Assembly (NCBI RefSeq): GCF_038396675.1
Contig: NC_088927.1
Span: 39,908,501-39,972,500, forward strand
DNA from: Hydra vulgaris
Taxonomy: Eukaryota; Cnidaria; Hydrozoa; Anthoathecata; Hydridae
Direction of reading: 5' to 3'
Length of the DNA stretch: 64,000 bases
The notes beneath the pieces were generated by a model. The model did no database searches and was not told the origin of the DNA. It saw only the letters and a list, made by a program, of their open reading frames with translations. Made by a program: the position numbers and the translations under genes. Shown here in pieces: positions 10,399 through 33,739 of this stretch. Position 1 is the first letter of the stretch. Each line of letters begins with the position of its first letter.

Positions 10399-10516
10399 TT
10401 AAACAACATCTTTTATGACATGAAATGCGGCATCTTGTTTTTCAGTCAATTTAATTCTTCTATAATTTTCGTAGTGAGTTATCTTTGTTACTTCAATCAT
10501 ATCTTCCATGTGCGTC
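10399..10516 (-). CDS. Septin exon 12 (last)
   Basis: Acceptor TTTAATAG. It encodes THMEDMIEV, then [10 protein letters not shown] and ends KDVV with TAA at 10399-10401. This matches the septin C-terminal alpha-helix block (THMQ..HYENYR). The tail is short and has no heptad coiled coil. Confidence 0.92.

Positions 10517-33739: not shown

Follow-up and report, generated by a model that had tools for sequence, protein, structure and literature searches.

A probable group-3 septin gene of Hydra vulgaris with a calmodulin/centrin-like EF-hand pair predicted in its N-terminus

The DNA analysed here, called the window, is a stretch of 64,000 nucleotides from Hydra vulgaris (RefSeq assembly GCF_038396675.1, contig NC_088927.1, positions 39,908,501 to 39,972,500 of the forward strand), and positions without further specification are those of the window. 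A twelve-exon gene model was built on its minus strand, which runs from 33739 to 10399 with the ATG exon at 33719..33739 and a stop codon ending at 10399, and which fits the gene limits of 10399..33739 proposed by a sequence-only reading of the same DNA. GT-AG ends are present in 10 of the 11 introns, the exception being the intron between E10 and E11, and the G+C content ranges from 0.27 to 0.43 in the exons and from 0.14 to 0.29 in the introns. The features of the model are as follows.

33719..33739, minus strand: E1, putative first coding exon, MDSESGK, with an ATG and the donor AAG/GTACAC, phase 0 out, placed without homology support
27031..27058, minus strand: E2, SVLTNSQAE(A), AG/GT sites, phase 0 to 1, covered by a centrin-2 match from query residue 3
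26512..26667, minus strand: E3, 156 nt, EF-hand 1 and the first half of EF-hand 2, phase 1 to 1
20446..20622, minus strand: E4, one open frame that passes from the second half of EF-hand 2 through the septin lead-in into the G domain
20230..20355, minus strand: E5, P-loop GSAGLGKST and beyond, Pfam Septin match over residues 118-345 of the spliced protein
19403..19484, minus strand: E6, G3 motif DTPGFGDQ
17453..17590, minus strand: E7, septin G domain
13552..13669, minus strand: E8, G4 motif AKAD
11112..11207, minus strand: E9, septin G domain
10917..11009, minus strand: E10, ending KTKWGVI, then TAAGTTTT, without a GT donor
10745..10796, minus strand: E11, first part of the presumed septin unique element, AG acceptor and GT donor
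10399..10516, minus strand: E12, remainder of the presumed septin unique element, short tail and stop codon TAA

The exons that carry the unusual N-terminus are E2, E3 and E4, each of which is preceded by AG and followed by GT; they are entered in phases 0, 1 and 1, respectively, and give a single open frame when joined. This agrees with the earlier claim that 26512-26667 and 27031-27058 join the exon at 20446-20622 in exact phase. The related claim, that the latter exon passes uninterrupted from half of an EF-hand into the septin lead-in, holds as well, with no stop codon in between, and all three exons are exact at the level of single bases. The fusion point lies inside E4, which on its own codes, free of stops, for the last part of EF-hand 2 and the first part of the septin. 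The G+C content of E2 and E3 is 0.39 compared with 0.25-0.26 in introns 1-3, and E2 aligns with the LTEEQ start of calmodulin and centrin. The assignment of E1, which is one of 40 ATG..GT candidates in 27059-40000 (phase 0, donor GTAA, GTGA, GTAT or GTAC), is unproven and is based on phase and position. Spliced through the end of E10, the predicted protein has a length of 345 residues.

Transposon-like sequence is present in intron 1 (6.7 kb) and in intron 3 (5.9 kb). Within intron 1, positions 27803-32368 resemble a young DNA transposon, the inverted arms of which (27803-28609 and 31571-32368) are 96% alike over 808 columns with TA repeats included, and which contains one open frame of 747 amino acids (29092-31335, plus strand) lacking a Pfam match at an E-value of 0.001. 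In the intron between E3 and E4, a weak match to the Pfam reverse transcriptase family RVT_1 was seen at 23591-23848 on the minus strand (22.3 bits, below the cut-off). The intron between E8 and E9 holds overlapping broken frames at 12127-13101 on the plus strand that look by eye like a transposase remnant; 12127-12420 matches a helix-turn-helix family (HTH_23, 36.3 bits) and 12844-13098 matches nothing in Pfam. Elsewhere in the window, a transposase piece is present at 37675-38133 on the plus strand (DDE_1, 74.6 bits) and a hAT dimerisation region at 52597-53106 on the minus strand (34.8 bits). A search of viral contigs gave 18 pattern matches, of which 0 were confirmed.

The predicted N-terminal half encoded by E2-E4 is, judged by homology above chance, an EF-hand pair of the calmodulin/centrin type. 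An EF-hand-pair HMM made from four sequences scored the module encoded by E2-E4 with 21.7 bits, compared with 11.1 bits for the best of 5000 residue shuffles, while Pfam EF-hand_7 remained under its cut-off of 30 both for this module (18.6 bits, E 0.0025) and for the whole 345-residue protein (14.8 bits, E 0.039). Of the EF-hand assignment that profile searches on the spliced translation were to check, the homology above chance thus stands and the Pfam cut-off is missed. The pair HMM, run over the 2747 stop-to-stop ORFs of the window, placed that of E3 first (11.0 bits, E 0.074, weak when taken alone) and that of E4 ninth (2.5 bits); a half-EF-hand model applied to the 175 minus-strand ORFs in ~20000-28000 placed the ORF of E4 first with 6.5 bits (E 0.093, likewise weak), followed by the next one with 4.5 bits. 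A phmmer search of E2-E4 against the PDB gave centrin-2 as top match with a whole-sequence E-value of 6.8e-8 over residues 3-78, the best single stretches reaching i-Evalues of 0.012-0.016. Most of the entries below centrin-2 are centrins, calmodulins, myosin light chains and troponin C; a few chains of unrelated proteins appear from an E-value of 0.5 upwards. With the 345-residue protein as query the centrin-2 match has an E-value of 3.1e-6 and no single stretch passes 0.001, and with E3 alone centrin-2 is again at the top (E 0.0019), the best single stretch having an i-Evalue of only 3.6. Searching the genome for a second copy of the module at E-values up to 10 gave four matches, of which two are at its own locus and none is to the EF-hand half elsewhere; the remaining two weak matches (E 2.7 and 8.1) are the septin lead-ins of the two septins on contig C10.

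The exon boundaries add a further line of evidence. In human calmodulin the exon plan starts with the ATG alone, followed by exons of 31 nt and 144 nt; this plan prompted the comparison, for which Hydra exons supply the evidence. In five Hydra genes of the calmodulin family (L036, L037, L038, L039 and L044) we inferred a 144-nt exon that starts in phase 1 at the codon five before a Phe of helix 1 and ends in phase 1 in a Gly codon of EF-hand 2. E3 of the septin likewise begins in phase 1, five codons ahead of the corresponding Phe, and its 3' end splits a Gly codon, again in phase 1; with 156 nt it is four codons longer than the exon of the calmodulin family. In the HMM alignment the split Gly of the septin falls at loop position 6, two codons off the intron of the calmodulin family; the 3' boundary therefore shares phase and residue with that family, while its exact place perhaps differs, and if both Gly residues are equivalent, E4 would be short of two loop codons. 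The 5' boundary is the stronger half of this evidence. The likeness of the E3 boundaries supports common descent with the calmodulin family beyond what residue scores alone provide, the boundaries having been placed manually on genomic sequence with the help of AG/GT sites and an alignment to calmodulin. The ten regions compared were chosen from EF-hand matches ending near profile position 49-53 of 67 and are not a random sample: five of them contain the 144-nt exon, L042 shares the 3' boundary, and L040, L041, L043 and L045 have no calmodulin match. For L037 the alignment continues upstream of the chosen 5' boundary, which makes this boundary less sure, and upstream of L036 a small second exon like that of calmodulin was not found within 1.2 kb. 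Four further copies with 83-96% identity to calmodulin (two on C3, one each on C2 and C10) are single long open frames.

Inspection of the calcium loops agrees with the earlier description of a first loop that keeps Asp, Glu, Thr and Gly without Glu at position 12 and of a degenerate second loop. In loop 1, Asp1, Glu3, Thr5, Gly6, Val8 and Asp9 are kept, and position 12 is occupied by Thr rather than Glu or Asp; in loop 2, an acidic residue is absent from the first and the last ligand position. As a rule, an EF-hand pair requires at least one good loop. Calcium binding by the module has, to judge from these residues, probably been lost, and binding by loop 1 appears unlikely.

The septin half is readily recognised. 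Pfam Septin (PF00735) matches residues 118-345 with 298.1 bits (cut-off 26.2), and the best PDB septin match starts at residue 95 of the spliced protein. Against the PDB, the scores are 328-285 bits with chains of SEPT3, SEPT9 and SEPT12, 254 bits with SEPT7 and 250 bits with SEPT2. By these best PDB scores, with no tree behind the class, the septin half is assigned to group 3 (SEPT3/9/12-type). The only candidate for a polybasic region before the G domain in the sequence read from E2-E4 is WGVKLKTPV; such regions are described as poorly conserved in groups 3 and 5 in a passage of a study on septin evolution (PMC6323724). The genome searched comprises 911,502,276 bases in 15 contigs, with the fusion gene lying on C8, and the Septin family gave 21 exon matches in it, which group by position into five loci. 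Pieces of the septin on C10 at 51.2 Mb match best with SEPT2 (378 compared with 325 for SEPT7), as do those of the second septin on C10 at 31.3 Mb with a narrow lead (281 compared with 263), whereas the pieces of the septin on C12 match best with SEPT6 and those of the septin on C15 with SEPT7. The fusion gene is thus the sole predicted group-3 septin found in this search, which scores best candidates only and which a very divergent septin could escape. When the EF-hand-pair HMM was applied to the 9676 ORFs around the four other septins (50-60 kb each), the best score was 6.6 bits (E 6.1), compared with the 11.0 bits of E3 in a scan of this type; the upstream sequence scanned from the lead-in exon amounted to ~30 kb for C10 at 51.2 Mb, 19 kb for C10 at 31.3 Mb and for C12, and ~7 kb for C15.

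The gene model has one flaw, located at the intron between E10 and E11. The end of E10, KTKWGVI, runs directly into TAAGTTTT with an in-frame TAA and no GT donor (minus strand, 10880-11010). At this place the four other septins, the donors of which were read directly from the sequence, have one extra codon (Glu in C15 and C10b, Asp in C10a and Leu in C12), then one base and then GT. A GC-AG donor at TGGG/GCGTCA would leave the frame intact, although the site is a poor one; use of the cryptic GTAAGT within E10 (~10970) would shift it. E11 and E12 are both open, and they match the last part of the Pfam Septin profile with 46.7 bits. When the last 87 residues were searched against the genome, no second copy came up; the matches were this locus, the known septin paralogs and one match at chance level. 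The flaw is either a small assembly error or a donor lost in this haplotype. The assembled allele, as predicted from its sequence, may give a protein that lacks the septin unique element, which we take to be the region of E11 and E12, its name and extent being given from general knowledge. The septin unique element helps to form the NC interface.

The reading that we favour, and that we hold to be probable, is that of one gene coding for a group-3 septin that has gained, by fusion, an EF-hand pair resembling the N-terminal half of calmodulin or centrin as its variable N-terminus; the pair would serve as a calcium-independent docking or dimer-stabilising unit. At the level of the predicted gene, it is founded on the in-frame join within one exon, the upstream exons in phase, the homology of both halves and the calmodulin-like exon boundaries. 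The N-terminus is the most variable part among septins and helps to set what a septin binds. For human group-3 septins, a variable N-terminal domain that includes a polybasic region is described, and these septins are placed at the octamer centre as a homodimer joined via the NC interface; this interface is movable, and its squeezing would free the polybasic region (PMC7201284). If the human homodimer placement applies to Hydra, two EF-hand-like modules would be present in each octamer, close to its middle. Because both loops are without key ligands, the module most likely works independently of calcium; by docking or by stabilising the dimer, it might tie the octamer centre to a partner or a membrane site. 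A tentative and rather doubtful further reading is that, with this fusion as the only group-3 subunit, every septin octamer of Hydra has two calmodulin-type modules at its centre and that these control opening and closing of the central NC interface, such that assembly answers calcium or a partner resembling a centrin target; we know of no such control of septins. A missing septin unique element would weaken the mechanism that involves the NC interface. If the favoured reading is true, such a module on the only group-3 subunit found would offer a direct handle on the role of the octamer centre, in an animal that has the other septin groups too and for which transgenesis in the laboratory is possible. 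The fusion, which seems to keep the exon boundaries of its donor, would be datable by looking in other cnidarians.

Several other explanations were weighed against this fusion. The flaw itself suggests a decaying or null allele, in which the donor has been lost, the protein ends after residue 345 and the fusion is without present function: the expected GT is absent here and present in four other septins, an in-frame TAA follows immediately and the genome has no other copy of this septin. We regard such an allele as unlikely, as the other exons, among them E11 and E12, have stayed open and look septin-like, in which case the loss would be recent or the gap an assembly error, and as the gene is the only group-3 septin found. 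Another explanation takes E1-E3 for remnants of an old calmodulin-type gene, with the septin transcript starting at E4, either from a separate promoter or by trans-splicing at the E4 acceptor, and with translation from the ATG of E4. Hydra is known for spliced-leader trans-splicing, an in-frame ATG is the second codon of E4, intron 1 contains the element with long inverted arms and intron 3 the weak reverse transcriptase match, and both loops are degenerate. However, E2 and E3 are open, in phase, flanked by AG/GT sites and of exon-like G+C, and the second half of EF-hand 2 is part of E4, where it would make little sense by itself; on balance, a remnant origin appears quite unlikely.

The remaining two explanations concern the module itself. 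If it still bound calcium or magnesium via EF-hand 1, septin assembly would be calcium-responsive, with which the conserved Asp1, Glu3, Thr5, Gly6, hydrophobic residue at position 8 and Asp9 of loop 1 are consistent; the Thr at position 12 of this loop and the absence of ligands at both ends of loop 2 argue against it and make it very unlikely. Finally, the likeness to an EF-hand might be due to chance in a helical septin extension, since the score is below the Pfam cut-off and the single-stretch matches are modest. This is hardly credible in view of a score that is ten bits above the best of 5000 shuffles, EF-hand proteins that fill the top of the PDB list and exon boundaries that resemble those of calmodulin-family genes.

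In the open-licence literature, no EF-hand or calmodulin-like septin appears in the titles or abstract openings among the matches listed, and an EF-hand is absent from the main text of three papers on septin evolution (PMC11238149, PMC6323724, PMC1931588). The gene would represent a true domain fusion, as far as its sequence indicates, in a combination unreported in the literature matches listed, and predicted proteins of this kind may well have been deposited without comment. A septin joined to unrelated domains is also known from the dinoflagellate S. minutum, in which a giant septin with SMC and HSP70 is described; there the domains and the lineage are other ones, and the passage in question leaves EF-hands unmentioned (PMC11238149). 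With the N-terminal pair of centrin and calmodulin, the Hydra module has in common the LTxxQ start, two helix-loop-helix units by alignment and similar exon boundaries; it differs from these proteins in consisting of one pair only, in having lost ligands in both loops, in its shorter loop 2 and in being fused to a GTPase. Compared with the human group-3 septins SEPT3, SEPT9 and SEPT12, the affinity of the G domain is common, as are GxxxxGKST, DTPG and AKAD and the lead-in, which reads GYVGFDS in Hydra and GYVGIDT in humans. In this assembly, the C-terminal part of the Hydra protein is cut from the G domain by the faulty splice site. To our knowledge the N-terminus of the human group-3 septins is variable and without an EF-hand, while the predicted Hydra protein has about 85 residues of a calmodulin-type pair in front of its septin.
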